Source: Siphonodentalium dalli (Eukaryota > Mollusca > Scaphopoda > Gadilida > Siphonodentaliidae). Taken from it: a stretch of 64,000 nucleotides of DNA. The notes under the pieces were generated by a model that was not told the DNA's origin, did not search any database, and worked only from the letters and a program-made list of their open reading frames with translations. Location of the stretch: contig CP136064.1 of the NCBI GenBank assembly GCA_032622095.1, forward strand, positions 127,831,605-127,895,604, given 5' to 3'. The translations under genes and the position numbers were made by a program. This document shows, one piece after another, positions 24,016 to 56,630 of the stretch (the first letter of the stretch is position 1; each line of letters begins with the position of its first letter).

Positions 24016-24017
24016 CC

Positions 24018-31599: not shown

Positions 31600-31734
31600 G
31601 AAAGTGTCAATGACACTGTAGCTCAACTTGGAAAGGGACTAATTTCACGTGTTACAGTCAATGGAGCGATAGAAATGCGGAAATTTGAAATGTCTAAGCA
31701 ATACCAGATTATCAACATGAAGATATATACATGT

Positions 31735-32910
31735 ATATATATAAAGTAAAATCCAAGATGGTTGCTGACAGCCGTATGTTTTTGAATGCAACTAAAAAAC
31801 ATTTGATAGCTTCCATCTAGTAAATCAATATCAAGATTAATATGAAGTTTGATGATGATCGGCTGAGGGCCGGAGTGGACTGTAGGGTGTGCGAAAGGAT
31901 TTAGTCATGCAGAGAGTAAAATCCAAGATGGCTGCCAGCTGACATGTTTTATGGTCGAATGACCCCAAAATGACTCGTTTCCCATTTACGTGTCAATGTT
32001 AACATCCATGATGATCAGACGAAAACTCCGGCCTGTAGCCCGTGCTAATGGATTGAATTTTGAAATCCAAGATGCCGCTGGCGGTCATATTTTTTTGCCG
32101 AATGATCCCAAATTGACTCGTTCCCATCTACATGTCAAGAGCCATGACAAATTTCATAATGATCAGACCAAAGGTACGACTCACTTGTAGCCTGTGCCAA
32201 ATGATTTAGTCGTGCAAAGAGAAAATCCAAGATTGCTGCCAGCGGCCATATTTTATGGCCGAATGACCCCAACATGACTCGTTCCCATTTACATGTCAAT
32301 GTCAACGCCCATGACAAATTTCATAATGATCCGACCAAAGGTATGACCTGGAGCCCGTGCCAAAGGATTTAGTCAGGCGAAGAGTAAAATCCAAGATGGC
32401 TGTGAGCGGCCATGTTTTGTGGCCGAATGACCCCAAAATGACTTGTTCCCATCTACATGTCATTGTTAACATCCATGACACATTTCATTATTATCAGACC
32501 AAAGGTATGACCTGCAGCCCATGCCAAACAATTTAGTCATGCAAAGAGTAAAATACAAGATGGCTGCCGGCGGCCATATTTTATGGCTGATCGACCCCAA
32601 AATTACTCGTTCCCATCTACATGTCAATATTAACATCCATGACAAATTTCATGATGGTCAGACAAACAGTAGGACCTGTATCCCGTGCTAATCGATTGAA
32701 TTTTGAAATCCAAGATGGCCGCTGGCAGCCATTTTTTTTTTCTCGAATGACCCCGAAATGACTCGTTCCCATCTACATGTCAATGTCAACAGCTATGACA
32801 AATTTTATAATGATCCGACCAAAGGTACGACCTGTAGCCCGTGCTAAAGGAAATTGTTGACGAATCACACTCGCACAGATACACGCACGACGGATACCAA
32901 GCCATGACAA
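31735..32910. repeat. ~160 bp repeats, left block of nanos unit 1
   Basis: GTTCCCATCTACATG recurs about every 155-170 bp with CCAAGATGGCTGCC and ATGACCCCAAAATGACTC blocks, all in the orientation of the right arm of the 4.6-6.3 kb array. Equivalents: 39178-40360, 46620-47800, 54050-54670 and 55800-56370. Confidence 0.9.
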
Positions 32911-32942
32911 TAGCTCAAACTCTACAAAGTAAAGTTGAGCTA
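32911..32942. repeat. Terminal hairpin of the ~160 bp repeat family, unit 1
   Basis: TAGCTCAAACT pairs with AGTTGAGCTA across about 10 bp. The element head has TAGCTCAACTT at 31619-31629, complementary to this end, so the whole block 31619-32942 is bounded by an 11 bp inverted repeat. Confidence 0.6.
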
Positions 32943-34080
32943 AAAATGTTATATTTAATTAAGAAAAGACACACACCGGCAGCGTTCAGACATCGCGTTG
33001 CGAGGGGACTGCACTCTGTTTTGCCGCAGCTTGCGATTTTCGCTGGCGTCATGCCCAGCTTGTTGACCATTGAACACGGGGGAGTAGAGTCTGAGCTGCA
33101 TATAGACCCCTCCCATATGTGGATTTTGTGTGTGATTATGATATATGTGTAGAACTGTATCAGTGCTTCATTTGCCGGTTGTTTGCCATCTGGCTATTGG
33201 GGCTTTCTAGAGTTGTCGGTCATTGAATCCAAGATGGCCGCCGAAACTGAATATCTGACTTGGTAAATTTTAATCAGCAAGTAATCAGGAAGATTGTGAG
33301 GTTATAGCTATTAAGTCGTGCGATATGTCATTATATTACTAATTGAATACACCATATTTATTGGTATGAATAAATTTCATATATTCAAAATGGCCGCCAA
33401 AATGGTCACCGGAAGTGTACAATGACGCTTTTTCAGTAATATTTTCTAGATCACTTTTTGTTGTTTGAAACTGGTTAAGAATTGTTACTTTGTTTTGCAT
33501 TGTTTATATTTTCTGGTCATTGGGGCAATGAAATAAGACATTATTGGTGTCCCTTACGATCCGTCAATAATTTGATTTTTACAGAACGCCAAAATAGCCG
33601 CCAAAATATGGAAAATTGTGAAGATTTCCCCGGTGTACCCTGAAAATCGCTTTGTTGTGGTTGATGAATAAAATTGCCTATTCTACATTACCAACATGTC
33701 TGTTGCACATTGGTTAATTGTTAGTATTGTAACTACTGGCATTGCCATAAATATTGGATTTTACTCTCACAAACTTGACAATCGGCAAAAATTCACTTTC
33801 ATGTTTGGACTATTAAAATGTAACTAACTTTGGTATGAAATGCGTTTATTGTTTTAAACTATTTTAAATGTGTCAAACCAAATTACTCAAGATGGCTTCC
33901 AAAATGTCAACCAACTTGGGTAAAATGTTCATTTTTCACATATATCCGGAACATAATATTATTCTCTGCTGTTCCGAAAAGTTAGCAAACTGTGACTCAC
34001 TTGGTTACTATGCATGTTAGGTCATCAACTGACAACTAAATATTCTACCTGATTGTCTCAGTTCCTTATGAGGGTGACGA

Positions 34081-34175
34081 CCCCCCCCCCCCCTACCTCC
34101 GGAATCCGGCTTAAAACTTACCCCGGCATCCGGAATACTCCATAAAAGAGAGACGGCATCCGGCATACACTTTCT
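34081..34175. repeat. C tract followed by ATCCGGAAT repeats
   Basis: C13, then CTCCGGAATCCGG, GGCATCCGGAATACTCC and GGCATCCGGCATACAC. The C tract is 15, 10 and 9 long in the equivalent positions near 41520, 48959 and 63140. Confidence 0.8.
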
Positions 34176-35142
34176 TCTCAAATGATACGAGGAATTAAAT
34201 CGTGCGTGTTAAAACGCAACATGTGGTGCCTAGCTATATTTACCATTTCTAACCGATTCTATTCAATCAATGTAACTTTTCCACTATTCTAGTGTGGTGC
34301 ACTCGGCGTTATACAAACTAACGTAGATTATCAACGTTTTAACCCGTCAAGCAGATGCCAGGTGGAAGTCAACTCTATCGGGGAATATAGCAAACCACAG
34401 GTCACCATTACGATCTATTTGAACACTAATATTATTAGTCACGCTCCCTCATATGGGGCATGACAAATTCATTTTAAAATTGCAATATGGAATTTGACTG
34501 AAAACCTCTTTTGGGATTATGGCCATATTTTGAAAGGAAATTGGCAGACTCGAAACTGAGATGAACCACAATATGTGGCTATTTTGGCCCATTTGGATCA
34601 AAATGGATCAACTTGATACAAAAGCTATGGAGGCCATGGTGGCAGCCAGGTAGTTACTGTATGGTCATAGGTGGTGTGAATAGGAATACAAGGAGTTATT
34701 TTATGGTCACGAATGATGTTAATAGATATACAAGGGGTGGTCATGATTGGGGTGTCCATTGTGAGATGCATGAGATACACGTAGTTGCTGGATGGTCACG
34801 TGTGAGGTGAAGATGTGGTGTGACTGTATGCATGGTTGCATGGTTATGTGTGGATGCACGGGTATACACGATGTGACTGTACATGGTCATCTATATGTTG
34901 TTTATGTATATATGTAGTGATGGCAAACAACCGGCAAATTGAGGGACTGATATAGTTATACAAAGATATCATAACCACAAAAACAATCCGCAAATGGTGG
35001 AGGGGGGGGGGGGGCTATATATGCAGCTAAATCGCACCCAATCAACTATAGCCAATTCCCAAAACTGCTGCTTCAGAACAAGTTAGTGGTTTTTTTTTTA
35101 TTTGCAATAAAACGAGAGATATATAATAAGAGAACGATCACA

Positions 35143-35148
35143 TTTATT
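35143..35148 (-). terminator. Candidate poly(A) signal of nanos copy 1
   Basis: AATAAA on the minus strand about 210 bp after the stop codon; a second AATAAA lies at 35103-35098. The sequence is the same in the other copies. Confidence 0.5.
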
Positions 35149-35357
35149 ACTGAAAATATAAACATCATTCATTCATATAACATTGACATAATATATAACA
35201 TTGGTTCCATGCAAGGAATCAGTTCAATCACATGTAGTAAGCACTATACATATATGCACACTGGCAAGCACGGGAACGGATTTGCACTATATTGAATACA
35301 TTTTTGGTGTACGGTTGAGACGTACAAGTACGAGTCACTTCAGTCTCAGTAATAGAA

Positions 35358-35939
35358 TCACATGAAGGATCGGGTATTTCCGCCGTAGTTTTGAGGACAG
35401 TACTTGATTGTGTGAGAATCGTCGCCTGTCTTCCTGCAGATAGGACAAACGTACCGTCTCAGAATGGGACACGTGGTTTTGCCGGCCGAGTTCTTCAGCA
35501 CGTGGCTGGAGTACACTTCTACGTCTTCGCCGTTGTTTCTGCAGAACACGCACAGAGGCTTTCTTGTCTTCTTGTTCTTAGACGCCACATATTCCTGGAG
35601 AACGTCACCGGAACACTGAACGTCACTTTCGTCGAGCGAGAGAAGTGTTGCGTCGAGGGTTTTGTAACTTCGTGCGGCTGACTGATACACGTCGAAATCA
35701 TCGAGGTCGGTTTCAATGCCGTTGCGACGAAATTCGTCGTATGCGTTGCATCTTGCGTTGTCGAGCTCCAGCAGATCGTTGGTGTGGTCGATGGTAGTAG
35801 GCATCGTTGCTGATATGTCCTTGAGAATTGTGAACGGACTGTCAATGACGGTTGTCTTGCTTTCAGCTCTTGGAACGTAATTTCCGAATGGGTTCAAACT
35901 AACGAACATTTCTTCGGTATCACCAAGGAAGAATTCCAT
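35358..35939 (-). CDS. nanos: Nanos homologue, copy 1 (193 aa)
   Basis: Nanos is an RNA-associated translational repressor that works with Pumilio-type proteins and the CCR4-NOT deadenylase in germ cells and multipotent cells. Residues 130-181 form the diagnostic double zinc finger: C130-x2-C133-x12-H146-x10-C157, then C165-x2-C168-x7-H176-x4-C181, with the family blocks [19 protein letters not shown] and [10 protein letters not shown]. The tail after the finger is only 12 residues. Residues 1-129 are acidic and low in known motifs; [11 protein letters not shown] near the N-terminus is a possible but weak match to the NOT1-binding motif. I start at the ATG at 35939 because the TATA and initiator matches lie about 85-115 bp upstream; the frame stays open for 84 more codons through that promoter. 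It is intronless, as nanos often is. Relative to copies 2 and 3 it has G6 and V118. Confidence 0.96.
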
Positions 35940-36017
35940 TGTAAAAACTGTTGAGTAAAACTGAGTCTGGATACTGAGTGTGATGGTACTAGTTATTGTA
36001 TGGTAATGGTTGTGAGA

Positions 36018-36106
36018 GCGAATGACATTTGCAGCCTGTACCGGTCTATTTATTACACTCTGGGCGTCCCCCAGTTGGTGCATGGGGGTTGACACCTGGT
36101 CAACTC
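36018..36106 (-). promoter_or_regulatory. Predicted core promoter and palindrome of nanos copy 1
   Basis: On the minus strand ATAAATAG (36053-36046) lies 30 bp upstream of the A of TCATTC (36025-36020), a match to the metazoan initiator. Further upstream, GTTGAC-N5-GTCAAC (36088-36104) is a perfect palindrome whose centre gives the E-box CAGGTG. All three copies keep these elements. The predicted 5' leader is about 84 bases. Confidence 0.5.
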
Positions 36107-36248
36107 CATTGGGCTTCGTTGAAAACCTTTCAGGATATTCTAGCCAATCGCGTTTCAGCGTTGTGAAAACATATAGTAAGCTAGTTACCACCGCAATTGA
36201 CTAATTTGAATGTTGTTTTATCGTCGCTGAACATCACAGGAACCAAAA

Positions 36249-36317
36249 ATGTCTCCATCGACGCCGAAAGTCGGTAAGAACATTATCAACGGATGGTACA
36301 ATGGATGGTACATCTAA
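36249..36317 (+). other. Small open frame or first-exon candidate divergent from nanos
   Basis: ATG preceded by CCAAAA opens a 22-codon frame (MSPSTPKVGKNIINGWYNGW, then YI and stop). A good splice-donor match, CG|GTAAGAA, lies at 36274, so ATG to 36273 could instead be a short first exon. It is identical in all three units, but so is most of the unit, so conservation proves nothing. It points away from nanos, about 310 bp from its start. Confidence 0.2.
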
Positions 36318-37137
36318 TTATACACAGTTGCACACACATATCTAATATTGTTGCAATATAAAATATAAAAAAGACGTGATTATGAATATATTATTCGAAA
36401 AAACATATTTAACAAATAAAAAAAAATAAAAAAACCTCATTGTGTATGAGCAGTTTGATAACAAAGCACATGACACTGAGATGATATATATATATGTCTC
36501 TCATAATTATGCATGTACGTCTTTGCTGTTCCATTTGATTTATTACACTTTTGTGAATTTTTCCAACTGTGAACTTCAAATTAGTGGAGTAGATTAAGTC
36601 CAAATTTCAAAGCAATTGTTCAATTTGTAACTAAAGCATGAAAATTTGCACATATGTACATGTTCACATACTAATTGATATTGGATATGGAGCCACGCTG
36701 AAATATAACGTTAACACCTCTTTTAAGGGGTTTTCCGAATTTAAAGAGCGTTTCGTGATTATATAATTTAATAAATGTCGCAATTAATCGTACCATGAAA
36801 TACGTGATTTAAAATTCGGCATATACATTAAGTATGATTATGCGATATATAATGTCACATTTTTGGGGTAAAATTGTAACTCCCATCAAGATGGCCGTAA
36901 AAATGGTAGCCGTAAGTGGATTTATTTTTTCACTAATATCTTAATGTAAACATATTTTATTCCAATCATAATAACATATATACATTTGACAAAGTGTTGA
37001 CAATAAAAACAGAATAGGATAAATGATTGTTGGATTGGAAAAGGGATTAAACAACAAGCCTAAGTTTGCTCCCTTTTTTTTTCGCGCCCACTCTTCATTA
37101 AGTGTAGAGGGGGGTCAGACGGGAAGGAATGGAAATA

Positions 37138-37189
37138 TTATAATAATAATAATAATAATAGTAATGATGATGTTATGATAGTCAGGAAG

Positions 37190-37230
<41 letters not shown>

Positions 37231-37275
37231 GAGAGAGACAGAAGGAGTGAAAGAAGACGGAAAGAGAGAGAGAGA
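37138..37275. repeat. TAA, AT and GA microsatellites, unit 1
   Basis: Consecutive (TAA)n, (AT)n and (GA)n tracts, followed by a CT-rich stretch at 37340-37420. Tract lengths vary in the equivalents at about 44578-44710 and 51996-52133. Confidence 0.9.
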
Positions 37276-37759
37276 AAAGAACATTAAATTTAACAGTGAA
37301 AAAAATGCGTTAAATTTCCATGAACACACGGCAGTTGTAGCACTCCTCCTCTCCCTTTCTCCCTCTCTTTCTCCCCCTCACTCACTCTGTATCTCGCTCT
37401 GTCTCTCTGACCTCAGCAGATTCATAAATTTTCTACGATTATTAAAATCATCATTATCATGTTATACATATCCTGTCATTCATATCATGTACTCTTCAAC
37501 TTGGCCTCTTACCCTCTGCTCTTCTTATATAGTCAATGTCTCTTTCTTTTCTGATGAGATAACTCAACATAAGTGATGACTCGATTGTTGTTAAATCCTC
37601 TTCAACCTCATCTATTCTAAATTATGTCATAAATAAACATTTGTAAAAAAAATATTATATATGTTCTTTGAGGGTAGAATTAAATATTGTTTAAACCAGA
37701 CCTGTGCAAACTAAGTGAGGCATACCATGACTAATTAATATTTCAACTCAATGGAACCA

Positions 37760-38435
37760 AAATTGTCACTTGGTCTGAAAATGGCTGCCAAGATGGCGAC
37801 CAAACATGGGAAATGGTAAATATTGACTCAGCATGCCATGTAATCGCTTACAAGTTGTGGTCGATGAATAAAATTGGCTATTCTGTCTTATATACTTTAA
37901 ATTCTAACATTTCTGATGCACACTGGTTAAGTGTTAACAATGTGACCACTGAAATTACCAGAATTATTGGATTTTTCTATCACAAACTTAACATAAAAAT
38001 TGGCAAAAATTTACTTTTCAGGTTTTGGCCATTTATTCAAGTAAATGGAAGTATCTTTGGTATCAGAGATGTTTATTGTTTTAATCTGTCTTAAATGCGT
38101 CACACTAATGTGTTTTTAGACAAAATTACTCAAGGTGGCTTCCAAAATGGCAACCAATTTGGTAAAACAAAAAAAGATGATTTTTTTTACATATATCCCG
38201 AACATTATTCTGTTCCCAAGAGTTAGAAAATTATAACTCACTTGTTTATTACCATGTTATGCTTAATCCAATGACTACTACATGTTTCATTCTCTGAGGC
38301 ATGACAAATTCCTTTTAAATGATATACTGCAGTATGGAATTTTGCCAAAAATGTCTTCTGGGACTCTGGCCATATTTTTTAACGGAAATAGGCAGAACGT
38401 CTAAACGAAATTGAGTGAAACCATATTATGTGGCT
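37760..38435. repeat. Diverged second copy of the block left of nanos, unit 1
   Basis: It matches 33590-34000 and 34440-34590 in order and orientation: AAAATGGCNGCC, TCGATGAATAAAATTGGCTA, GCACACTGGTTAAGTGTTA, ATTACTCAAGGTGGCTTCC, CATATATCCCGAACAT, GGCATGACAAATTC and ATTATGTGGCTA all have counterparts on the other side of nanos. Divergence is clearly greater than between whole units. Confidence 0.8.
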
Positions 38436-38823
38436 ACTCTCGACAATTAGCATGAACATCAACTTAATATATGGTGTATGTTTTTTTGCCGAATAACCCT
38501 AAAATGTCAAGATCCATGACGAATTTCATAATGATCCTATCAAAGGTACGTCTTGTAGCCTTTGCCAAAGGATTTAGTCATGCAAAGAGTAAAATCCAAG
38601 ATTGCTGCCATACTTTATGGCCGAATGACCCCAACATGACTCGTTTCCATCTACATGTCAATGTCAACGCCCATGACAAATTTCATAATGATCCAACCAA
38701 AGGTATGACCTGTAGCCCGTGCCAAAGGATTTAGTCAGGCAAAGAGTAAAATCCAAGATGGCTGCCAGCGGCCATGTTTTATGGCCGAATGACCCCAAAA
38801 TGAATTGTTCCCATCTGAGATCA

Positions 38824-39042
38824 GCTGAGATCAGTCTCCTACCCAGGATTAACCGCTGCTCGCGCCCATATGTTGCCCGCGCCCACACGTATTGCGAAGA
38901 AATGTCTCATTTATGTATTTGAGACGTTTGTAGGTTACAATTCATTCTGCATTATTCTGAGAAGCTGAACAGCCCAAATTCATTTGAAAATTGTCTAGAT
39001 CAAGTTAGAATGAATTACAACTGACAAAACGCATCAATAAAC
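38824..39042. repeat. ~220 bp piece of array 1 segment A at the nanos unit junction
   Basis: It aligns with 14765-14989 (GCTGAGATCAGTCTCC through CATCAATAAAC) with roughly one change in ten bases, and ends exactly where the next nanos unit begins. It is repeated at the ends of units 2 (to 46481) and 3 (to 53906). Confidence 0.85.
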
Positions 39043-42000
39043 GAAAGTGTCAATGACACTGTAGCTCAACGTGGAAAGGGACTAATTTCATGTGTTACAG
39101 TCAATGAAGCGATAGAAATGCGGAAAGTTGAAATGTCTAAGTAATATCAGATTATCAACATGAAGATATATACATGTATATATATAAAGTAAAATCCAAG
39201 ATGGTTGCTGACAGCCGTATGTTTTTGAATTCAACTAAAAAACATTTGATAGCTTCCATCTAGTAAATCAATATCAAGATTAATATGAAGTTTGATGATG
39301 ATCGGCTGAGGGGAGTGGACTGTAGGGTGTGCAAAAGGATTTAGTCATGCAGAGAGTAAAATCCAAGAGGGCTGCCAGCTGACATGTTTTATGGTCGAAT
39401 GACCCCAAAATGACTCGTTTCACATTTACGTGTCAATGTTAACATCCATGATGATCAGACGAAAACTCCGGCCTGTAGCCCGTGCTAATGGATTGAATTT
39501 TGAAATCCAAGATGCCGCTGCCGGCCAAATTTTTTTGCCGAATGATCCCAAATTGACTCGTTCCCATCTACATGTCAAGAGCCATGACAAATTTCATAAT
39601 GATCAGACCAAAGGTACGACTCACTTGTAGCCTGTGCCAAATGATTTAGTCGTGCAAAGAGAAAATCCAAGATTGCTGCCAGCGGCCATATTTTATGGCC
39701 GAATGACCCCAACATGACTCGTTCCCATTTACATGTCAATATCAACGCCCATGACAAATTTCATAATGATCCGACCAAAGGTATGACCTGGAGCCCGTGC
39801 CAAAGGATTTAGTCAGGCGAAGAGTAAAATCCAAGATGGCTGTGAGCGGCCATGTTTTGTGGCCGAATGACCCCAAAATGACTTGTTCCCATCTACATGT
39901 CATTGTTAACATCCATGACACATTTCATTATTATCAGACCAAAGGTATGACCTGCAGCCCATGCCAAACAATTTAGTCATGCAAAGAGTAAAATACAAGA
40001 TGGCTGCCGGCGGCCATATTTTATGGCTGATCGACCCCAAAATTACTCGTTCCCATCTACATGTCAATATTAACATCCATGACAAATTTCATGATGGTCA
40101 GACAAACAGTAGGACCTGTATCCCGTGCTAATCGATTGAATTTTGAAATCCAAGATGGCCGCTGGCAGCCATTTTTTTTTCTCGAATGACCCCAAAATGA
40201 CTCGTTCCCATCTACATGTCAATGTCAACAGCTATGACAAATTTTATAATGATCCGACCAAAGGTACGACCTGTAGCCCGTGCTAAAGGAAATTGTTGAC
40301 GAATCACACTCGCACAGATACACGCACGACGGATACCAAGCCATGACAATAGCTCAAACTCTACAAAGTAAAGTTGAGCTAAAAATGTTATATTTAATTA
40401 AGAAAAGACACACACCGGCAGCGTTCAGACATCGCGTTGCGAGGGGACTGCACTCTGGTTTGCCGCAGCTTGCGATTTTCGCTGGCGTCATGCCCAGCTT
40501 GTTGACCATTGAGCACGGGGGAGTAGAGTCTGAGCTGCATATAGACCCCTCCCATATGTGGATTTTGTGTGTGATTATGATATATGTGTAGAACTGTATC
40601 AGTGCTTCATTTGCCGGTTGTTTGCCATCTGGCTATTGGGGCTTTCTAGAATTGTCGGTCATTGAATCCAAGATGGCCGCCGAAACTGAATATCTGACTT
40701 GGTAAATTTTAATCAGCAAGTAATCAGGAAGATTGTGAGGTTATAGCTATTAAGTCGTGCGATATGTCATTATATTACTAATTGAATACACCATATTTAT
40801 TGGTATGAATAAATTTCATATATTCAAAATGGCCGCCAAAATGGTCACCGGAAGTGTACAATGACGCTTTTTCAGTAATATTTTCTAGATCACTTTTTGT
40901 TGTTTGAAACTGGTTAAGAATTGTTACTTTGTTTTGCATTGTTTATATTTTCTGGTCATTGGGGCAATGAAATAAGACATTCTTGGTGTCCCTTACGATC
41001 CGTCAATAATTTGATTTTTACAGAACGCCAAAATAGCCGCCAAAATATGGAAAATTGTGAAGATTTCCCCGGTGTACCCTGCAAATCGCTTTGTTGTGGT
41101 TGATGAATAAAATTGGCTATTCTACATTACCAACATGTCTGTTGCACATTGGTTAATTGTTAGTATTGTAACTACTGGCATTGCCATAAATATTGGATTT
41201 TACTCTCACAAACTTGACAATCGGCAAAAATTCACTTTCATGTTTGGACTATTAAAATGTAACTAACTTTGGTATGAAATGTGTTTATTGTTTTGAACTA
41301 TTTTAAATGTGTCAAATCAAATTACTCAAGATGGCTTCCAAAATGTCAACCAACTTGGGTAAAATGTTCATTTTTTACATATATCCGGAACATAATATTA
41401 TTCTCTGCTGTTCCGAAAAGTTAGCAAACTGTGACTCACTTGGTTACTTTGCATGTTAGGTCATCAACTGACAACTAAATATTCTACCTAATTGTCTCAG
41501 TTCCTTATGAGTGTGACGACCCCCCCCCCCCCCCACCTCCGGAATCCGGCTTAAAACTTACCCCGGTATCCGGAATACTCCATAAAAGAGAGACGGCATC
41601 CGGCATACACTTTCTTCTCAAATGATACGAGGAATTAAATCGTGCGTGTTAAAACGCAACATGTGGTGCCTAGCTATATTTACCATTTCTAACCGATTCT
41701 ATTCAATCAATGTAACTTTTCCACTATTCTAGTGTGGTGCACTCGGCGTTATACAAACTAACGTAGATTATCAACGTTTTAACCCGTCAAGCAGATGCCA
41801 GGTGGAAGTCAACTCAATCGGGGAATATAGCAAACCACAGGTCACCATTACGATCTATTTGAACACTAATATTATTAGTCACCCTCCCTCATATGGGGCA
41901 TGACAAATTCATTTTAAAATTGCAATATGGAATTTGACTGAAAACCTCTTTTGGGATTATGGCCATATTTTGAAAGTAAATTGGCAGACTCGAAACTGAG

Positions 42001-42570
42001 ATGAACCACAATATGTGGCTATTTTGGCCCATTTGGATCAAAATGGATCAACTTGATACAAGAGCTATGGAGGCCATGGTGGCAGCCATGTAGTTACTGT
42101 ATGGTCATAGGTGGTGTGAATAGGAATACAAGGAGTTATTTTATGGTCACGAATGATGTTAATAGATATACAAGGGGTGGTCATGATTGGGGTGTCCATT
42201 GTGAGATGCATGAGATACACGTAGTTGCTGGATGGTCATGTGTGAGGTGAAGATGTGGTGTGACTGTATGCATGGTTGCATGGTTATGTGTGGATGCACG
42301 GGTATACACGATGTGACTGTACATGGTCATCTATATGTTGTTTATGTATATATGTAGTGATGGCAAACAACCGGCAAATTGAGGGACTGATATAGTTATA
42401 CAAGGATATCATAACCACAAAAAAAATCCGCAAATGGTGGAGGGGGGCTATATATGCAGCTAAATCGCACCCAATCAACTATAGCCAATTCCCAAAACTG
42501 CTGCTTCAGAACAAGTTTTTTTTTTGGATTTGCAATAAAACGAGAGATATATAATAAGAGAAGGATCACA

Positions 42571-42576
42571 TTTATT
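42571..42576 (-). terminator. Candidate poly(A) signal of nanos copy 2
   Basis: AATAAA on the minus strand about 210 bp after the stop codon, in the same place as in copy 1. Confidence 0.5.
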
Positions 42577-42785
42577 ACTGAAAATATAAACATCATTCAT
42601 TCATATAACATTGACATAATATATAACATTGGTTCCATGCAAGGAATCAGTTCAATCACATGTAGTAAGCACTATACATATATGCACACTGGCAAGCACG
42701 GGAACGGATTTGCACTATATTGAATACATTTTTGGTGTACGATTGAGACGTACAAGTACGAGTCACTTCAGTCTCAGTAATAGAA

Positions 42786-43370
42786 TCACATGAAGGATCG
42801 GGTATTTCCGCCGTAGTTTTGAGGACAGTACTTGATTGTGTGAGAATCGTCGCCTGTCTTCCTGCAGATAGGACAAACGTACCGTCTCAGAATGGGACAC
42901 GTGGTTTTGCCGGCCGAGTTCTTCAGCACGTGGCTGGAGTACACTTCTACGTCTTCGCCGTTGTTTCTGCAGAACACGCACAGAGGCTTTCTTGTCTTCT
43001 TGTTCTTAGACGCCGCATATTCCTGGAGAACGTCACCGGAACACTGAACGTCACTTTCGTCGAGCGAGAGAAGTGTTGCGTCGAGGGTTTTGTAACTTCG
43101 TGCGGCTGACTGATACATGTCGAAATCATCGAGGTCGGTTTCAATGCCGTTGCGACGAAATTCGTCGTATGCGTTGCATCTTGCGTTGTCGAGCTCCAGC
43201 AGATCGTTGGTGTGGTCGATGGTAGTAGGCATCGTTGCTGATATGTCCTTGAGAATTGTGAACGGACTGTCAATGACGGTTATTGTCTTGCTTTCAGCTC
43301 TTGGAACGTAATTTCCGAATGGGTTCAAACTAACGAACATTTCTTGGGTATCATCAAGGAAGAATTCCAT
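42786..43370 (-). CDS. nanos: Nanos homologue, copy 2 (194 aa)
   Basis: Second intact copy, with the same predicted role as copy 1 (translational repression in germline or stem-like cells). Both zinc fingers and the C-terminal tail are identical to copy 1, shifted by one residue because an extra codon lies near residue 30 (KTITV against KTTV). Other differences from copies 1 and 3 are Q9 (E in both others) and M at position 85 (V84 in both others). It shares D6 and the alanine after the EY motif with copy 3. No stop, frameshift or loss of a zinc ligand is seen, so nothing in the sequence says it is dead. The start at 43370 is chosen by equivalence with copy 1. Confidence 0.95.
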
Positions 43371-43448
43371 TGTAAAAACTGTTGAGTAAAACTGAGTCTG
43401 GATACTGAATGTGATGGTACTGGTTATCGTATGGTAATGGTTGTGAGA

Positions 43449-43537
43449 GCGAATGACATTTGCAGCATGTACCGGTCTATTTATTACACTCTGGGCGTCC
43501 CCCAGTTGGTGCATGGGGGTTGACACCTGGTCAACTC
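43449..43537 (-). promoter_or_regulatory. Predicted core promoter and palindrome of nanos copy 2
   Basis: ATAAATAG (43484-43477) lies 30 bp from the A of TCATTC (43456-43451); the GTTGAC-N5-GTCAAC palindrome is at 43519-43535. Confidence 0.5.
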
Positions 43538-43679
43538 CATTGGGCTTCGTTGAAAACCTTTCAGGATATTCTAGACAATCGCGTATCAGCGTTGTGAAAA
43601 CATATAGTAAGCTAGTTACCACCGCAATTGACTAATTTGAATGTTGTTTTATCGTCGCTGAACATCACAGGAACCAAAA

Positions 43680-43748
43680 ATGTCTCCATCGACGCCGAAA
43701 GTCGGTAAGAACATTATCAACGGATGGTACAATGGATGGTACATCTAA
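43680..43748 (+). other. Small open frame divergent from nanos copy 2
   Basis: Identical to the 22-codon frame of unit 1, including the GTAAGAA donor match. Function unknown. Confidence 0.2.
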
Positions 43749-44630
43749 TTATACACAGTTGCACACACATATCTAATATTGTTGCAATATAAAATATAAA
43801 AAAGACGTGATTATGAATATATTATTCGAAAAAACATATTTAACAAATAAAAAAAAATAAAAAAACCTCATTGTGTATGAGCAGTTTGATAACAAAGCAC
43901 ATGACACTGAGATGATATATATATGTCTCTCATAATTATGCATGTACGTCTTTGCTGTTCCATTTGATTTATTACACTTTTGTGATTTTTTCCAACTGTG
44001 AACTTCAAATTAGTGGAGTAGATTAAGTCCAAATTTCAAAGCAATTGTTCAATTTGTAACTAAAGCATGAAAATTTGCACATATGTACATGTTCACATAC
44101 TAATTGATATTGGATATGGAGCCACGCTGAAATATAACGTTAACACCTCTTTTAAGGGGTTTTCCGAATTTAAAGAGCGTTTCGTGATTATATAATTTAT
44201 TAAATGTCGCAATTAATCGTACCATGAAATACGTGATTTAAAATTCGGCATATACATTAAGTATGATTATGCGATATATAATGTCACATTTTTGGGGTAA
44301 AATTGTAACTCCCATCAAGATGGCCGTAAAAATGGTAGCCGTAAGTGGATTTTTTTTCCCACTAATATCTTAATGTAAACATATTTTATTCCAATCATAA
44401 TAACATATATACATTTGACAAAGTGTTGACAATAAAAACAGAATAGGATAAATGATTGTTGGATTGGAAAAGGGATTACACAACAAGCCCAAGGGCTTTT
44501 GTTAAGTTTGCTCCCTTTTTTTTCGCGCCCACTCTTCATTAAGTGTAGAGGGGGGTCAGACGGGAAGGAATGGAAATATTATAATAATAATAATAATAAT
44601 ACTAATGATGATGTTATGATAGACAGGAAG

Positions 44631-44673
<43 letters not shown>

Positions 44674-47600
44674 AGGAGTGAAAGAAGACGGAAAGAGAGA
44701 GAGAGAGATAAAAGAACATTAAATTTAACAGTGAAAAAAATGCGTTAAATTTTCATGAACACACGGCAGTTGTAGCACTCCTCCTCTCCCTTTCTCCCTC
44801 TCTTTCTCCCCCTCACCCACTCTGTATCTCGCTCTGTCTCTCTGACCTCAGCAGATTCATAAATTTTCTACGATTATTAAAATCATCATTATCATGTTAT
44901 ACATATCCTGTCATTCATATCACGTACTCTTCAACTTGGCCTCTTACCCTCTGCTCTTCTTATATAGTCAATGTCTTTTTCTTTTCTGATGAGATAACTC
45001 AACATAAGTGATGACTCGATTGTTGTTAAATCCTCTTCAACCTCATCTATTCTAAATTATGTCATAAATAAACATTTGTAAAAAAAATATTATATATGTT
45101 CTTTGAGGGTAGAATTAAACCAGACCTGTGCAAACTAAGTGAGGCATACCATGACTAATTAATATTTCAACTCAATGGAACCAAAATTGTCACTTGGTCT
45201 GAAAATGGCTGCCAAGATGGCGACCAAACATGGGAAATGGTAAATATTGACTCAGCATGCCATGTAATCGCTTACAAGTTGTGGTCGATGAATAAAATTG
45301 GCTATTCTGTCTTATATACTTTAAATTATAACATTTCTGATGCACACTGGTTAAGTGTTAACAATGTGACCACTGAAATTACCAGAATTATTGGATTTTT
45401 CTATCACAAACTTAACATAAAAATTGGCAAAAATTAACTTTTCAGGTTTTGGCCATTTATTCAAGTAAATGGAAGTATCTTTGGTATCAGAGATGTTTAT
45501 TGTTTTAATCTGTCTTAAATGCGTCACACGAATGTGTTTTTAGACAAAATTACTCAAGGTGGCTTCCAAAATGGCAACCAATTTGGTAAAACAAAAAAAA
45601 GATGATTTTTTTTACATATATCCCGAACATTATTCTGTTCCCAAGAGTTAGAAAATTATAACTCACTTGTTTATTACCATGTTATGCTTAATCCAATGAC
45701 TACTACATGTTTCATTCTCTGAGGCATGACAAAATTCCTTTTAAATGATATACTGCAGTATGGAATTTTGCCAAAAATGTCTTCTGGGACTCTTGCCATA
45801 TTTTTGAACGGAAATAGGCAGAACGTCTAAACGAAATTGAGTGAAACCATATTATGTGGCTACTCTCGACAATTAGCATGAACATCAACTTAATATATGG
45901 TGTATTGTTTTTGCCGAATAACCCTAAAATGTCAATGTCAAGATCCATGACGAATTTCATAATGATCCTATCAAAGGTACGTCTTGTAGCCTTTGCCAAA
46001 GGATTTAGTCATGCAAAGAGTAAAATCCAAGATTGCTGCCATGCTTTATGGCCGAATGACCCCAACATGACTCGTTTCCATCTACATGTCAATGTCAACG
46101 CCCATGACAAATTTCATAATGATCCAACCAAAGGTATGACCTGTAGCCCGTGCCAAAGGATTTAGTCAGGCAAAGAGTAAAATCCAAGATGGCTGCCAGC
46201 CTGCCAGCGGCCATGTTTTTTGGCCGAATGACCCCAAAATGAATTGTTCCCATCTGAGATCAGCTGAGATCAGTCTCCTACCCAGGATTAACCGCTGCCC
46301 GCGCCCATATGTTGCCCGCGCCCACACGTATTGCGAAGAAATGTCTCATTTATGTATTTGATACGTTTGTAGGTTACAATTCATTCTGCATTATTCTGAG
46401 AAGCTGAACAGCCCAAATTCATTTGAAAATTGTCTAGATCAAGTTAGAATGAATTACAACTGACAAAACGCATCAATAAACGAAAGTGTCAATGACACTG
46501 TAGCTCAACTTGGAAAGGGACTAATTTCATGTGTTACAGTCAATGGAGCGATAGAAATGCGGAAAGTTGAAATGTCTAAGTAATATCAGATTATCAACAT
46601 GAAGATATATACATGTATAAATATAAAGTAAAATCCAAGATGGTTGCTGACAGCCGTATGTTTTTGAATGCAACTAAAAAACATTTGGTAGCTTCCATCT
46701 AGTAAATCAATATCAAGATTAATATGAAGTTTGATGATGATCGGCTGAGGGGAGTGGACTGTAGGGTGTGCGAAAGGATTTAGTCATGCAGAGAGTAAAA
46801 TCCAAGATGGCTGCCAGCTGACATGTTTTATGGTCGAATGACCCCAAAATGACTCGTTTCCAATTTACGTGTCAATGTTAACATCCATGATGATCAGACG
46901 AAAACTCCGGCCTGTAGCCCGTGCTAATGGATTGAATTTTGAAATCCAAGATGCCGCTGGCGGCCATATTTTTTTGCCGAATGATCCCAAATTGACTCGT
47001 TCCCATCTACATGTCAAGAGCCATGACAAATTTCATAATGATCAGACCAAAGGTACGACTCACTTGTAGCCTGTGCCAAATGATTTAGTCGTGCAAAGAG
47101 AAAATCCAAGATTGCTGCCAGCGGCCATATTTTATGGCCGAATGACCCCAACGTGACTAGTTCCCATTTACATGTCAATGTCAACGCCCATGACAAATTT
47201 CATAATGATCCGACCAAAGGTATGACCTGGAGCCCGTGCCAAAGGATTTAGTCAGGCGAAGAGTAAAATCCAAGATGGCTGTGAGCGGCCATGTTTTGTG
47301 GCCGAATGACCCCAAAATGACTTGTTCCCATCTACATGTCATTGTTAACATCCATGACACATTTCATTATTATCAGACCAAAGGTATGACCTGCAGCCCA
47401 TGCCAAACAATTTAGTCATGCAAAGAGTAAAATACAAGATGGCTGCCGGCGGCCATATTTTATGGCTGATCGACCCCAAAATTACTCGTTCCCATCTACA
47501 TGTCAATATTAACATCCATGACAAATTTCATGATGGTCAGACAAACAGTAGGACCTGTATCCCGTGCTAATCGATTGAATTTTGAAATCCATGATGGCAG

Positions 47601-50012
47601 CTGGCAGCCATTTTTTTTTCTCGAATGACCCCAAAATGACTCGTTCCCATCTACATGTCAATGTCAACAGCTATGACAAATTTTATAATGATCCGACCAA
47701 AGGTACGACCTGTAGCCCGTGCTAAAGGAAATTGTTGACGAATCACACTCGCACAGATACACGCACGACGGATACCAAGCCATGACAATAGCTCAAACTC
47801 TACAAAGTAAAGTTGAGCTAAAAATGTTATATTTAATTAAGAAAAGACACACACCGGCAGCGTTCAGACATCGCGTTGCGAGGGGACTGCACTCTGTTTT
47901 GCCGCAGCTTGCGATTTTCGCTGGCGTCATGCCCAGCTTGTTGACCATTGAACACGGGGGAGTAGAGTCTGAGCTGCATATAGACCCCTCCCATATGTGG
48001 ATTTTGTGTGTGATTATGATATATGTGTAGAACTGTATCAGTGCTTCATTTGCCGGTTGTTTGCCATCTGGCTATTGGGGCTTTCTAGAGTTGTCGGTCA
48101 TTGAATCCAAGATGGCCGCCGAAACTGAATATCTGACTTGGTAAATTTTAATCAGCAAGTAATCAGGAAGATTGTGAGGTTATAGCTATTAAGTCGTGCG
48201 ATATGTCATTATATTACTAATTGGATACACCATATTTATTGGTATGAATAAATTTCATATATTCAAAATGGCCGCCAAAATGGTCACCGGAAGTGTACAA
48301 TGACGCTTTTTCAGTAATATTTTCTAGATCATTTTTTGTTGTTTGAAACTGGTTAAGAATTGTTACTTTGTTTTGCATTGTTTATATTTTCTGGTCATTG
48401 GGGCAATGAAATAAGACATTCTTGGTGTCCCTTACGATCCGTCAATAATTTGATGTTTACAGAACGCCAAAATAGCCGCCAAAATATGGAAAATTGTGAA
48501 GATTTCCCCGGTGTACCCTGCAAATCGCTTTGTTGTGGTTGATGAATAACATTGGCTATTCTACATTACCAACATGTCTGTTGCACATTGGTTAATTGTT
48601 AGTATTGTAACTACTGGCATTGCCATAAATATTGGATTTTACTCTCACAAACTTGACAATCGGCAAAAATTCACTTTCATGTTTGGACTATTAAAATGTA
48701 ACTAACTTTGGTATGAAATGTGTTTATTGTTTTGAACTATTTTAAATGTGTCAAACCAAATTACTCAAGATGGCTTCCAAAATGTCAACCAACTTGGGTA
48801 AAATGTTCATTTTTCACATATATCCGGAACATAATATTATTCTCTGCTGTTCCGAAAAGTTAGCAAACTGTGACTCACTTGGTTACTATACATGTTAGGT
48901 CATCAACTGACAACTAAATATTCTACCTGATTGTCTCAGTTCCTTATGAGGGTGACGACCCCCCCCCCTACCTCCGGAATCCGGCTTAAAACTTACCCCG
49001 GCATCCGGAATACTCCATAAAAGAGAGACGGCATCCGGCATACACTTTCTTCTCAAATGATACGAGGAATTAAATCGTGCGTGTTAAAACGCAACATGTG
49101 GTGCCTAGCTATATTTACCATTTCTAACCGATTCTATTCAATCAATGTAACTTTTCCACTATTCTAGTGTGGTGCACTCGGCGTTATACAAACTAACGTA
49201 GATTATCAACGTTTTAACCCGTCAAGCAGATGCCAGGTGGAAGTCAACTCTATCGGGGAATATAGCAAACCACAGGTCATCATTACGATCTATTTGAACA
49301 CTAATATTATTAGTCACCCTCCCTCATATGGGGCATGACAAATTCATTTTAAAATTGCAATATGGAATTTGGCTGAAAACCTCTTTTGGGATTATGGCCA
49401 TATTTTGAAAGGAAATTGGCAGACTCGAAACTGAGATGAACCACAATATGTGGCTATTTTGGCCCATTTGGATCAAAATGGATCAACTTGATACAAGAGC
49501 TATGGAGGCCATGGTGGCAGCCAGGTAGTTACTGTATGGTCATAGGTGGTGTGAATAGGAATACAAGGAGTTATTTTATGGTCACGAATGATGTTAATAG
49601 ATATACAAGGGGTGGTCATGATTGGGGTGTCCATTGTGAGATGCATGAGATACACGTAGTTGCTGGATGGTCATGTGTGAGGTGAAGATGTGGTGTGACT
49701 GTATGCATGGTTGCATGGTTATGTGTGGATGCACGGGTATACACGATGTGACTGTACATGGTCATCTATATGTTGTTTATGTATATATGTAGTGATGGCA
49801 AACAACCGGCAAATTGAGGGACTGATATAGTTATACAAGGATATCATAACCACACAAAAAAATCCGCAAATGGTGGAGGGGGGCTATATATGCAGCTAAA
49901 TCGCACCCAATCAACTATAGCCAATTCCCAAAACTGCTGCTTCAGAACAAGTTAGTGTTTTTTTTTTGGATTTGCAATAAAACGAGAGATATATAATAAG
50001 AGAACGATCACA

Positions 50013-50018
50013 TTTATT
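50013..50018 (-). terminator. Candidate poly(A) signal of nanos copy 3
   Basis: AATAAA on the minus strand about 197 bp after the stop, slightly closer than in the other copies because of the 13 bp deletion. Confidence 0.5.
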
Positions 50019-50214
50019 ACTGAAAATATAAACATCATTCATTCATATAACATTGACATAATATATAACATTGGTTCCATGCAAGGAATCAGTTCAATCA
50101 CATGTAGTAAGCACTATACATATATGCACACTGGCAAGCACGGGAACGGATTTGCACTATATTGAATACATTTTTGGTGTACAAGTACGAGTCACTTCAG
50201 TCTCAGTAATAGAA

Positions 50215-50796
50215 TCACATGAAGGATCGGGTATTTCCGCCGTAGTTTTGAGGACAGTACTTGATTGTGTGAGAATCGTCGCCTGTCTTCCTGCAGATAG
50301 GACAAACGTACCGTCTCAGAATGGGACACGTGGTTTTGCCGGCCGAGTTCTTCAGCACGTGGCTGGAGTACACTTCTACGTCTTCGCCGTTGTTTCTGCA
50401 GAACACGCACAGAGGCTTTCTTGTCTTCTTGTTCTTAGACGCCGCATATTCCTGGAGAACGTCACCGGAACACTGAACGTCACTTTCGTCGAGCGAGAGA
50501 AGTGTTGCGTCGAGGGTTTTGTAACTTCGTGCGGCTGACTGATACACGTCGAAATCATCGAGGTCGGTTTCAATGCCGTTGCGACGAAATTCGTCGTATG
50601 CGTTGCATCTTGCGTTGTCGAGCTCCAGCAGATCGTTGGTGTGGTCGATGGTAGTAGGCATCGTTGCTGATATGTCCTTGAGAATTGTGAACGGACTGTC
50701 AATGACGGTTGTCTTGCTTTCAGCTCTTGGAACGTAATTTCCGAATGGGTTCAAACTAACGAACATTTCTTCGGTATCATCAAGGAAGAATTCCAT
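50215..50796 (-). CDS. nanos: Nanos homologue, copy 3 (193 aa)
   Basis: Third intact copy, with the same predicted role. It differs from copy 1 at only two residues in my reading (D6 instead of G6, A118 instead of V118); the zinc finger region 130-181 is identical. It looks like the least derived of the three: at each variable site it agrees with at least one other copy. The promoter elements, small divergent frame and poly(A) signal are all kept. No disabling change is seen. The ATG at 50796 matches the start chosen for the other copies. Confidence 0.96.
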
Positions 50797-50874
50797 TGTA
50801 AAAACTGTTGAGTAAAACTGAGTCTGGATACTGAATGTGATGGTACTAGTTATCGTATGGTAATGGTTGTGAGA

Positions 50875-50963
50875 GCGAATGACATTTGCAGCATGTACCG
50901 GTCTATTTATTACACTCTGGGCGTCCCCCAGTTGGTGCATGGGGGTTGACACCTGGTCAACTC
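50875..50963 (-). promoter_or_regulatory. Predicted core promoter and palindrome of nanos copy 3
   Basis: ATAAATAG (50910-50903) lies 30 bp from the A of TCATTC (50882-50877); the GTTGAC-N5-GTCAAC palindrome is at 50945-50961. Confidence 0.5.
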
Positions 50964-51105
50964 CATTGGGCTTCGTTGAAAACCTTTCAGGATATTCTAG
51001 CCAATCGCGTATCAGCGTTGTGAAAACATATAGTAAGCTAGTTACCACCGCAATTGACTAGTTTGAATGTTGTTTTATCGTCGCTGAACATCACAGGAAC
51101 CAAAA

Positions 51106-51174
51106 ATGTCTCCATCGACGCCGAAAGTCGGTAAGAACATTATCAACGGATGGTACAATGGATGGTACATCTAA
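51106..51174 (+). other. Small open frame divergent from nanos copy 3
   Basis: Same 22-codon frame and donor match as in the other units; function unknown. Confidence 0.2.
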
Positions 51175-52050
51175 TTATACACAGTTGCACACACATATCT
51201 AATATTGTTGCAATATAAAATATAAAAAAGACGTGATTATGAATATATTATTCGAAAAAACATATTTAACAAATACAAAAAAATAAAAAACCTCATTGTG
51301 TATGCGCAGTTTGATAACAAAGCACATGACACTGAGATGATATATATATGTCTCTCATAATTATGCATGTACGTCTTTGCTGTTCCATTTGATTTATTAC
51401 ACTTTTGTGAATTTTTCCAACTGTGAACTTCAAATTAGTGGAGTAGATTAAGTCCAAATTTCAAAGCAATTGTTCAATTTGTAACTAAAGCATGAAAATT
51501 TGCACATATGTACATGTTCACATACTAATTGATATTGGATATGGAGCCACGCTTAAATATAACACCTCTTTTAAGGGGTTTTCCGAATTTAAAGAGCGTT
51601 TCGTGATTATATAATTTATTAAATGTCGCAATTAATCGTACCATGAAATACGTGATTTAAAATTCGGCATATACATTAAGAATGATTATGCGATATATAA
51701 TGTCACATTTTTGGGGTAAAATTGTAACTCCCATCAAGATGGCCGTAAAAATGGTAGCCGTAAGTGGATTTTTTTTTTCACTAATATCTTAATGTAAACA
51801 TATTTTATTCCAATCATAATAACATATATACATTTGACAAAGTGTTGACAATAAAAACAGAATAGGATAAATGATTGTTGGATTGGAAAAGGGATTACAC
51901 AACAAGCCCAAGGGCTTTTGTTAAGTTTGCTCCCTTTTTTTTTCGCGCCCACTCTTCATTAAGTGTAGAGGGGGGTCAGACGGGAAGGAATGGAAATATA
52001 ATAATAATAATAATAATAATAGTAATGATGATGTTATGATAGACAGGAAG

Positions 52051-52085
<35 letters not shown>

Positions 52086-54678
52086 GAGAGAGAGAGAAGG
52101 AGTGAAAGAAGACGGAAAGAGAGAGAGAGAGAAAAGAACATTAAATTTAACAGTGAAAAAAATGCGTTAAATTTTCATGAACACACGGCAGTTGTAGCAC
52201 TCCTCCTCTCCCTTTCTCCCTCTCTTCCCCCCTCACCCACTCTGTCTCTCGCTCTGTCTCTCTAACCTCAGCAGATTCATAAATTTTCTACGATTATTAA
52301 AATCATCATTATCATGTTATACATATCCTGTCATTCATATCATGTACTCTTCAACTTGGCCTCTTACCCTCTGCTCTTCTTATATAGTCAATGTCTTTTT
52401 CTTTTCTGATGAGATAACTCAACATAAGTGATGACTCGATTGTTGTTAAATCCTCTTCAACCTCATCTATTCTAAATTATGTCATAAATAAACATTTGTA
52501 AAAAAAATATTATATATGTTCTTTGAGGGTAGAATTAAATATTGTTTAAACCAGACCTGTGCAAACTAAGTGAGGCATACCATGACTAATTAATATTTCA
52601 ACTCAATGGAACCAAAATTGTCACTTGGTCTGAAAATGGCTGCCAAGATGGCGACCAAACATGGGAAATGGTAAATATTGACTCAGCATGCCATGTAATC
52701 GCTTACAAGTTGTGGTCGATGAATAAAATTGGCTATTCTGTCTTATATACTTTAAATTCTAACATTTCTGATGCACACTGGTTAAGTGTTAACAATGTGA
52801 CCACTGAAATTACCAGAATTATTGGATTTTTCTATCACAAACTTAACATAAAAATTGGCAAAAATTAACTTTTCAGGTTTTGGCCATTTATTCAAGTAAA
52901 TGGAAGTATCTTTGGTATCAGAGATGTTTATTGTTTTAATCTGTCTTAAATGCGTCACACGAATGTGTTTTTAGACAAAATTACTCAAGGTGGCTTCCAA
53001 AATGGCAACCAATTTGGTAAAACCAAAAAAGATGATTTTTTTTACATATATCCCGAACATTATTCTGTTCCCAAGAGTTAGAAAATTATAACTCACTTGT
53101 TTATTACCATGTTATGCTTAATCCAATAACTACTACATGTTTCATTCTCTGAGGCATGACAAATTCCTTTTAAATGATATACTGCAGTATGGAATTTTGC
53201 CAAAAATGTCTTCTGGGACTCTGGCCATATTTTTGAACGGAAATAGGCAGAACGTCTAAACGAAATTGAGTGAAACCATATTATGTGGCTACTCTCGACA
53301 ATTAGCATGAACATCAACTTAATATATGGTGTATGTTTTTTTGCCGAATAACCCTAAAATGTCAATGTCAAGATCCATGACGAATTTCATAATGATCCTA
53401 TCAAAGGTACGTCTTGTAGCCTTTGCCAAAGGATTTAGTCATGCAAAGAGTAAAATCCAAGATTGCTGCCATGCTTTATGGCCGAATGACCCCAACATGA
53501 CTCGTTTCCATCTACATGTCAATGTCAACGCCCATGACAAATTTCATAATGATCCAACCAAAGGTATGACCTGTAGCCCGTGCCAAAGGATTTAGTCAGG
53601 CAAAGAGTAAAATCCAAGATGGCTGCCAGCGGCCATGTTTTATGGCCGAATGACCCCATGCAAAATGAATTGTTCCCATCTGAGATCAGCTGAGATCAGT
53701 CTCCTACCCAGGATTAACCGCTGCCCGCGCCCATATGTTGCCCGCGCCCACACGTATTGCGAAGAAATGTCTCATTTATGTATTTGAGACGTTTGTAGGT
53801 TACAATTCATTCTGCATTATTCTGAGAAGCTGAACAGACAAATTCCTTTGAAAATTGTCTAGATCAAGTTAGAATGAATTACAACTGACAAAACGCATCA
53901 ATAAACGAAAGTGTCAATGACACTGTAGCTCAACTTGGAAAGGGACTAATTTCATGTGTTACAGTCAATGGAGCGATAGAAATGCGGAAAGTTGAAATGT
54001 CTAAGTAATATCAGATTATCAACATGAAGATATATACATGTATATATATAAAGTAAAATCCAAGATGGTTGCTGACAGCTATGTTTTCGAATGCAATTAA
54101 AAAAACATTTGATAGCTTCCATCTAGTAGATAAATATCAAGATTAATATGAAGTTTGGTGATGATCGGCTGAGGGGAGTGGACTGTAGGGTGTGCGAAAG
54201 GATTTAGTCATGCAAAGAGTAAAATCAAAGATGGCTGCCAGCTGACATGTTTTATGGTCGAATGACCCCAAAATGACTCATTTCCAATTTACGTGTCAAT
54301 GTTAACATCCATGATGATCAGACGAAAACTCCGGCCTGTAACCCGTGCTAATGGATTGGTGTAAACAATATTTTGGATTGAATTTTGAAATCCAAGATGC
54401 CGCTGCCGGCCATATTTTTTTGCCGAATGATCCCAAAATGACTCGTTCCCATCTACATGTCAAGAGCCATGACAAATTTCATAATGATCCGATCAAAGGT
54501 ACGACTTATAGCCTGTGCCAAAGGATTTAGTCATGCAAAGAGAAAATCCAAGATTGCTGCCAGCGGCCATGTTTTATGGCCGAATGACACCAACATGAAT
54601 CGTTCCCATCTACATGTCAATGTCAACGCCCATGACAAATTTCATAATGATCCGACCAAAGGTATGACCTGTAGCCCG

Positions 54679-55802: not shown

Positions 55803-56630
55803 GTAGCCCGTGCCAAAGGATTTAATCAGGCAAAGAGTAAAATCCAAGATGGCTGCCAGCGGCCATGTTTTGTGGCCGAATGACCCCAAAATTACTTGTT
55901 CCCATCTACATCTCAGTGTTAACATCCATGACACATATCATTATTATCAGACCAAAGGTATGACCTGCAGCCCATGCCAAACAATTTAGTCATGCAAAGA
56001 GTAAAATCCAAGATGGCTGCCGGCGGCCATGTTTTATAGCTGATCGACCCCAAAATTACTCGTTCCCATCTACATGTCAATATTAACATCCATGACAAAT
56101 TTCATGATGATCAGGCAAACTGTAGGACCTGTATCCCGTGCTAATGGATTGGAATTTGAAATACAAGATGGTCGCTGGCAGCCATGTTTTTTTTCTTCGA
56201 ATGACCCCAAAATGACTCGTTCCCATTTATATGTCAATGTCAACAGCTATGACAAATTTTATAATGATCCGACCAAGGGTACGACCTGTAGCCCGTGATA
56301 AAGGAAATTGTTGACGAATCACACACGCACACGCACGACGGATACCAAGCCATGGCAATAGCTCAAACTCTACAAAGTAAAGTTGAGCTAAAAATGTTAT
56401 ATTTAATTAAGAAAAGACACACACCGGCAGCGTTTCTGGCAGGGAGTGGAGCGAGGCAGTCATCATTTGCTTTGTCTGTATTAGTTCCTCTCTGTCAGAC
56501 GTTAACACGAGTGAGTTGTGTGGTCGCGACTTCGGTTGCAGCTGCCCTCGTATTAATGCCGACCGGAGTGAGACGGTTTTGGATTAGGCTCAGGACGGAT
56601 TATGGAGCTAATCCCCGACGCCGCGTTAGC

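Follow-up and report, generated by a model that had tools for sequence, protein, structure and literature searches.

Tandem arrays of different nanos paralogues in the genome of the scaphopod Siphonodentalium dalli

The genome of the scaphopod mollusc Siphonodentalium dalli contains at least 251 matches to the zinc finger of Nanos, a conserved germline repressor of translation, most of them in tandem arrays built around different nanos paralogues. One array runs through a 64,000-nucleotide stretch of contig CP136064.1 (C4:127831605-127895604 in our numbering; hereafter the window), in which three intact copies are found. With moderate confidence, we read this pattern as recurrent amplification of a germline repressor, retained by selection and probably serving dosage. 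nanos belongs to the small set of genes used throughout animals to form germ cells, and reports usually describe low copy numbers. Two nanos genes are described in Echinococcus (PMC4015340), two in Nematostella (PMC11328910) and four in a grouper (PMC5412271).

Nanos genes in the window

The three copies are encoded on the minus strand, at 35358-35939 (W1, 193 residues plus stop), 42786-43370 (W2, 194 residues plus stop) and 50215-50796 (W3, 193 residues plus stop). Each is a single open, intronless and intact frame of 193-194 codons. The longest frames begin 48 codons 5' of Met49 (that of W1 runs to 36083); Met49 is the likely start, and the 48-residue extension was judged spurious, because the related copies on contig C6 lose the upstream frame. 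All three copies score 88.2 bits against the zf-nanos profile (PF05741; cut-off, 27 bits) and have the zinc-finger spacing C-X2-C-X12-H-X10-C-X7-C-X2-C-X7-H-X4-C. W3, the copy searched against structures, matches the solved Nanos structures 5kl1, 5kl8 and 3alr (E ~6e-16). An earlier note on this DNA had called the genes nanos, three of them, intact and intronless, in direct repeats; frames, spacing and profile scores agree with that description, and its outer coordinates coincide with ours. The proteins differ, as the note had listed, at residues 6, 9, 84 and 118 and near residue 30, where there is an insertion; they are without differences from residue 119 to the end. Five copies from other nanos classes of this genome score 82.7-88.4 bits.

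The genes sit in direct repeats of 7.44 kb. In a self-alignment, positions 31597-47236 align to 39040-54678 at 97.8%, which bears out the tandem arrangement. The impression of a cluster of three was an effect of the window's edge. The near end of the next nanos copy lies at C4:127896061, some 460 bases past the window end, and the array comprises 18 copies over ~285 kb, in two blocks (C4:127.867-127.939 and 128.088-128.151 Mb).

Nanos copies across the genome

We searched the assembly (2.23 Gb, 9 contigs) for other nanos loci, a check the earlier note had proposed. The counts come from the best matches of a profile search and of single-protein searches, so that totals are lower bounds. The at least 251 zinc-finger matches, some of them short or damaged, are located on 6 out of 9 contigs. 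Among the best 150 of 349 candidates in the profile search, all 150 exceed the cut-off and none has a stop inside the domain.

The largest array occupies C1:129.370-129.916 Mb, with ~3.0 kb per unit and at least 150 copies (150 out of the 150 matches listed). A second array on the same contig, at C1:103.256-103.394 Mb, has 54 copies with a median spacing of 2521 bases. Outside these two arrays and the window array there are 29 matches. They include 25 dispersed or paired copies on C1, C2, C3, C4, C5 and C6, and four shorter matches (C4:124834149, C5:18576677, C2:141673464 and C2:141686918) with frames of 89-122 residues, which may be exons, fragments or decayed copies.

Other families of the germline and of mRNA repression were counted in the same way. 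Pumilio repeats are confined to one locus (6 matches, among the best 150 of 221 candidates scored), the NOT1 domain of CNOT1 to one locus (4 matches) and the Piwi domain of Piwi and Argonaute proteins to four loci (16 matches). The searches read exon by exon and may miss short exons. On these counts, the three families are not amplified in the way that nanos is.

Separate origins of the arrays

When one unit per array was compared by blastn, the only matches between units were 175 bases long (103-Mb versus 129-Mb array) and 80 bases long (129-Mb versus window array), and both fall inside the nanos coding region. Since the units share no DNA outside the gene, amplification must have occurred at least three times, separately and from different paralogues. 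The earlier note had envisaged copy-number change through a satellite-like mechanism; this is supported and was understated, given three unrelated units, each with another paralogue.

A protein phylogeny of 33 rows, reconstructed under LG+C20, assigns a different relative to each array. The 103-Mb array groups with the copy at C1:97 (support 93/81), the 129-Mb array with the C5:18 group (100/99) and the window array with the pair of copies on C6 (97/94). Support is firm for 9 out of 27 inner branches, and several long branches come together, leaving the deep order unsure. Protein identity to the window copy is 27-49% across classes, except for the C6 copy (92%).

The C6 copies share more than the gene with the window array. 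A 1.4-kb block of the window (35028-36425, minus strand), comprising upstream region, coding region and 3' flank, is 86-87% identical to the two C6 copies. The sampled C1:97 copy has just 49 bases upstream in common with the 103-Mb array; the common 3' flank extends far past the AATAAA signal, and no A-tail was seen. The C6 and C1:97 copies look like products of DNA duplication that carried flanks along. A retrocopy origin was considered for these copies and ruled out, as the common flanks run past the transcript. Long poly-C tracts were observed near two independent nanos homology breakpoints, at ~35002-35014 of the window and at ~251-263 of another stretch of the genome (L055).

Selection on the Nanos proteins

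The ratio of non-synonymous to synonymous substitution rates (dN/dS, Nei-Gojobori) ranges from 0.09 to 0.39 in 14 out of 15 locus pairs, which overlap in their members and are not independent; the fifteenth is saturated. Equal rates were rejected in all seven pairs tested (p from 1.3e-6 to 0.007), two of which compare the window array with C6. Pooled over 22 pairs, the comparison of window array and C6 gives a dN/dS of 0.22. These ratios indicate that purifying selection has kept the protein in most between-locus comparisons.

A contiguous 200 kb of the 129-Mb array contains 58 full-length copies, 57 of them intact; two more copies there are interrupted by an insertion, and one fragment of 42 bases is present. 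The pairwise ratio of non-synonymous to synonymous polymorphism (pN/pS) among the 57 copies is 0.40. Diversity and indels were assessed in 45 evenly spaced units of this array, selected among copies that have a long open frame, which excluded one of the 58 full-length copies. Nucleotide diversity is 0.0045 in the coding region and 0.0018 in most of the finger part, compared with 0.0075 over the 600 upstream bases and ~0.011 in the outer flanks of either side. Coding region and flanks differ about 2.5-fold (Fisher p=0.024 when segregating sites are counted, 0.059 without singletons). A 5- to 10-fold drop in diversity over the coding region, initially a candidate result, was largely due to misalignment and shrank to this value with evenly spaced units. 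Distinct indels number 2 in the coding region, both of 3 bases, 11 upstream and 25 downstream; against the 36 in the flanks, 11.1 would be expected in the coding region (P=0.001). These p-values are approximate, the copies being related. In the window array, 11 out of the 13 copies read (of 18) are whole.

Classes with and without a NOT1-interacting motif

Bhandari et al. (PMC4003280) give F1, W4, D6, Y7 and L10 as the near-invariant positions of the NOT1-interacting motif, and report the motif in molluscs and its absence from annelid, flatworm, rotifer and insect Nanos. As it is absent from the Nanos of several groups, it is not required of every family member. Near the N-terminus, four out of five positions are present in the C2 copy (FQAMRDYFGL) and in the sampled copies of C1:97 (FSMFGDYLGL) and C1:103 (FSLFGDYLGL), a score equalled by 0-2 out of 2000 shuffles. 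The copies C5:23.7 (YSPWDDYFGF) and C5:249 (YSPWNNYFDL) have three out of five positions near the N-terminus, equalled by 101-209 out of 2000 shuffles, which is suggestive only.

The window class has no recognisable motif: the tested copy, W3, reaches two out of five positions, at chance level against shuffles. The motif was likewise at chance level in one C6 copy, in the C4:249 copies, in the tested copy of the 129-Mb array and in six out of seven copies of the C4:88-92/C3 group; the seventh has three out of five positions at residue 59, equalled by 310 out of 2000 shuffles. The C5:18 copies show three positions, equalled by 248-312 out of 2000 shuffles. Judged by these motif scores, the CCR4-NOT contact known in vertebrate Nanos is kept by some nanos classes of this genome and missing from others.

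Predicted promoters and flanks

A TATA-like sequence, AATAAATA, lies 115 bases 5' of the W1 start codon (36047-36054, minus strand), and a likely W1 polyadenylation signal, AATAAA, is found in the sequence at 35143-35148 on the same strand. W1 and W3 both have AATAAATA and, further upstream, ATTGG and CCAAT boxes, and both C6 copies keep an ATTGG box together with AATAAATA; all these elements are consensus matches only. The shared upstream region agrees with the predicted promoters that the earlier note had placed before the genes. For the earlier note's suggestion that all three genes could be expressed, shared upstream sequence and selection on the protein between most loci are the only pointers.

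Repeat layout of the window

The three 7.4-kb units delimited by self-alignment span 31597-39039, 39040-46478 and 46479-53904; beyond the third, similarity goes on to 54678, into a broken fourth unit. A displaced piece of the unit (55805-56434) is 94-95% identical to units 1-3, and pieces of the next unit (61882-63999) reach 90-92%. Each unit contains a tandem sub-repeat of 164 bp, with about five repeats in unit 1 (32063-32848, plus strand) and the same arrangement in units 2 and 3 (39503-40287 and 46942-47726).

A second tandem array adjoins the nanos array at 11771-31599, with about three copies of a 6.12-kb unit that are 99.9% alike. It has no nanos gene, and no open frame of at least 120 residues was present in the unit tested. 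The 6.12-kb and 7.4-kb units have 223 bases in common, at 91%. Tandem repeats of 130 bp (TTGACCTTTAATTGACAATTTTGAAGG...) and of 16/32 bp (GAACCTTCGGAATAGC) were observed both in the 6.12-kb array (15308-15821) and in the 129-Mb nanos array; some repeats of these types sit in stretches that split two nanos copies (C1:129.36-129.56 Mb). Elsewhere in the window, overlapping frames at 7130-8245 resemble, by eye, the reverse transcriptase and RNase H of a retroelement, and none of the three had a Pfam match at 1e-3. Further frames of 103 and 141 residues lie at 2245-2556 (plus strand) and 60209-60634 (minus strand).

Some observations concern the genome as a whole. For miR-1992, which we take to be a lophotrochozoan mark, and miR-1985, which we take to be a mollusc mark, the sequences that we presume to be theirs each have one exact match in the genome, within sequence that folds into a hairpin (z of -5.1 against shuffles at the miR-1992 locus). 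Rfam returned nothing above the gathering score at the miR-1992 locus or in the window. Genome searches for the molluscan hemocyanin domain and for the arthropod cuticle domain, both run without a positive control, gave no match. The microRNA matches and the presence of the NOT1-interacting motif point to a lophotrochozoan, probably a mollusc; the missing hemocyanin match is mild evidence for the contrary, or for a group without this domain.

Discussion

In the reading that we favour, the arrays would expand and contract by unequal crossing-over, and their units would be homogenised by unequal crossing-over or gene conversion. Short promoters belonging to each copy would drive transcription in the germ line or early embryo, and the encoded zinc-finger proteins, together with the single Pumilio, would silence target mRNAs. 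Proteins with a near-complete motif, as in the copies sampled from the 103-Mb array, could directly recruit CCR4-NOT; the window class would need another contact with this complex, as Drosophila Nanos does, or would have a specialised role. Amplification would presumably be kept because the dosage of Nanos rises, as with histone and rRNA gene arrays, a benefit that is conjectured here.

Several results weigh against selective retention. Among 11 copies of the window array, 3 variants are synonymous and 15 non-synonymous (at 125 and 454 sites, respectively), and the pooled dN/dS of 1.84 is near neutral given these numbers. For the C6 pair the ratio is 2.73, a value that comes from very few changes. 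In the three units of the window, conservation is not clearly higher in the coding region than in the DNA around it. The pN/pS of the 129-Mb array is 0.84 when distinct variants are counted once, and 6 out of 150 listed copies of this array carry an in-frame TGA. Of the window-array copies read, one is frameshifted and one has a zinc-ligand histidine replaced by tyrosine (the damaged pair, C4:127918392-127919114 and C4:128120151-128120875). Near-neutral variation inside the window array, and damaged copies in it and in the 129-Mb array, would be expected if nanos had merely come to lie in unstable tandem DNA, with a few functional sources and most copies dispensable, homogenised passengers of a passively growing satellite. 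The 164-bp and other tandem repeats inside the unit speak for the same account, as does the adjoining 6.12-kb array, which indicates that this region makes arrays even without a nanos gene. We nevertheless consider passive growth rather doubtful: three unrelated units share the nanos coding region only, each with a different paralogue, and the coding region of the 129-Mb array is less diverse than its flanks, with frame-preserving indels, albeit the diversity contrast is modest.

That one germline gene was amplified repeatedly, and on several chromosomes, could also reflect conflict in the germ line, in which amplified nanos genes would be drivers, suppressors or decoys and classes without the motif might compete for the single Pumilio. 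A review (PMC10618873) interprets co-amplified, spermatogenesis-related families on sex chromosomes as a sign of such conflict. The low identity between most classes implies fast divergence, several classes have no NOT1-interacting motif above chance, and protein change within the window array is near neutral or faster. We think such conflict unlikely, since between-locus dN/dS is well below 1 in all but the saturated pair and no class shows clear positive selection. A bolder version is, if anything, a little less probable: nanos would be a currency of germline conflict, its paralogues independently arrayed, the motif-less classes antagonising the others for Pumilio and copy number tuning germ-cell fate or transmission.

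Two further explanations were considered. The copy number of long arrays is hard to assemble, and haplotypes or misassembled repeats might have been counted several times. However, the copies differ by substitutions, indels and insertions, belong to strongly differing classes on six contigs, and both the window and the 200 kb read from C1 are free of Ns, which makes an assembly artefact very improbable. A single copy, one outcome that the earlier note had set against its own proposal, is not what the assembly contains. The dispersal over six contigs and the poly-C tracts near the two homology breakpoints might instead suggest that a mobile element captured nanos and spread it. Against this, the common blocks consist of gene and flank and showed no shared ends, in an inspection not aimed specifically at terminal repeats or target-site duplications, the flanks differ from class to class, and the 3' flank shared by the C1:97 copy continues past AATAAA with no A-tail. 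We give a mobile origin the slightest chance of all.

With at least 251 nanos matches, amplified at three places, against one locus each for Pumilio and CNOT1, this genome would allow testing whether a core germline repressor is under dosage selection or conflict, and asking how an animal tolerates swings in nanos copy number. The side-by-side presence of classes with and without the NOT1-interacting motif is a natural experiment on mRNA silencing by Nanos. Word searches of the open PMC literature, with subscription papers and preprints outside their scope, found no report of nanos arrays or of large nanos expansions. The gene family and the kind of amplification are known; the case stands out by the unusual gene, by the unusual scale and by a genome in which at least three arrays formed separately.

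Like Drosophila nos and vertebrate NANOS1-3, the genes described here encode a CCHC-CCHC RNA-binding domain in one open frame, and some classes keep the NOT1-interacting motif. They differ from the known family in their number within one genome and in a window class that has no recognisable motif. Genes of gametogenesis are known to be amplified, especially on sex chromosomes (PMC10618873). In salmon, another germ-cell determinant occurs in extra copies: the tetraploid genome is reported to have seven buc and buc-like genes (PMC5080839), compared with some 250 matches here, mostly in tandem arrays. Unlike non-coding satellite DNA, the nanos arrays have coding content that appears selected between loci, yet it is near neutral within the window array and the C6 pair.

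Histone and rRNA genes also form tandem arrays with homogenised units. The nanos arrays resemble them in both respects, but encode an RNA-binding regulator rather than a product made in bulk, and a need of dosage is presumed for it. Stellate is a tandemly amplified germline gene family and, like the ampliconic genes of X and Y chromosomes, shares with the nanos arrays the tandem arrangement of many copies, nearly alike and mostly intact, of a gene related to gametogenesis. The present case differs from both in that a conserved repressor of translation was amplified, and in that different paralogues of it gave rise to arrays on two contigs, in at least three separate events.

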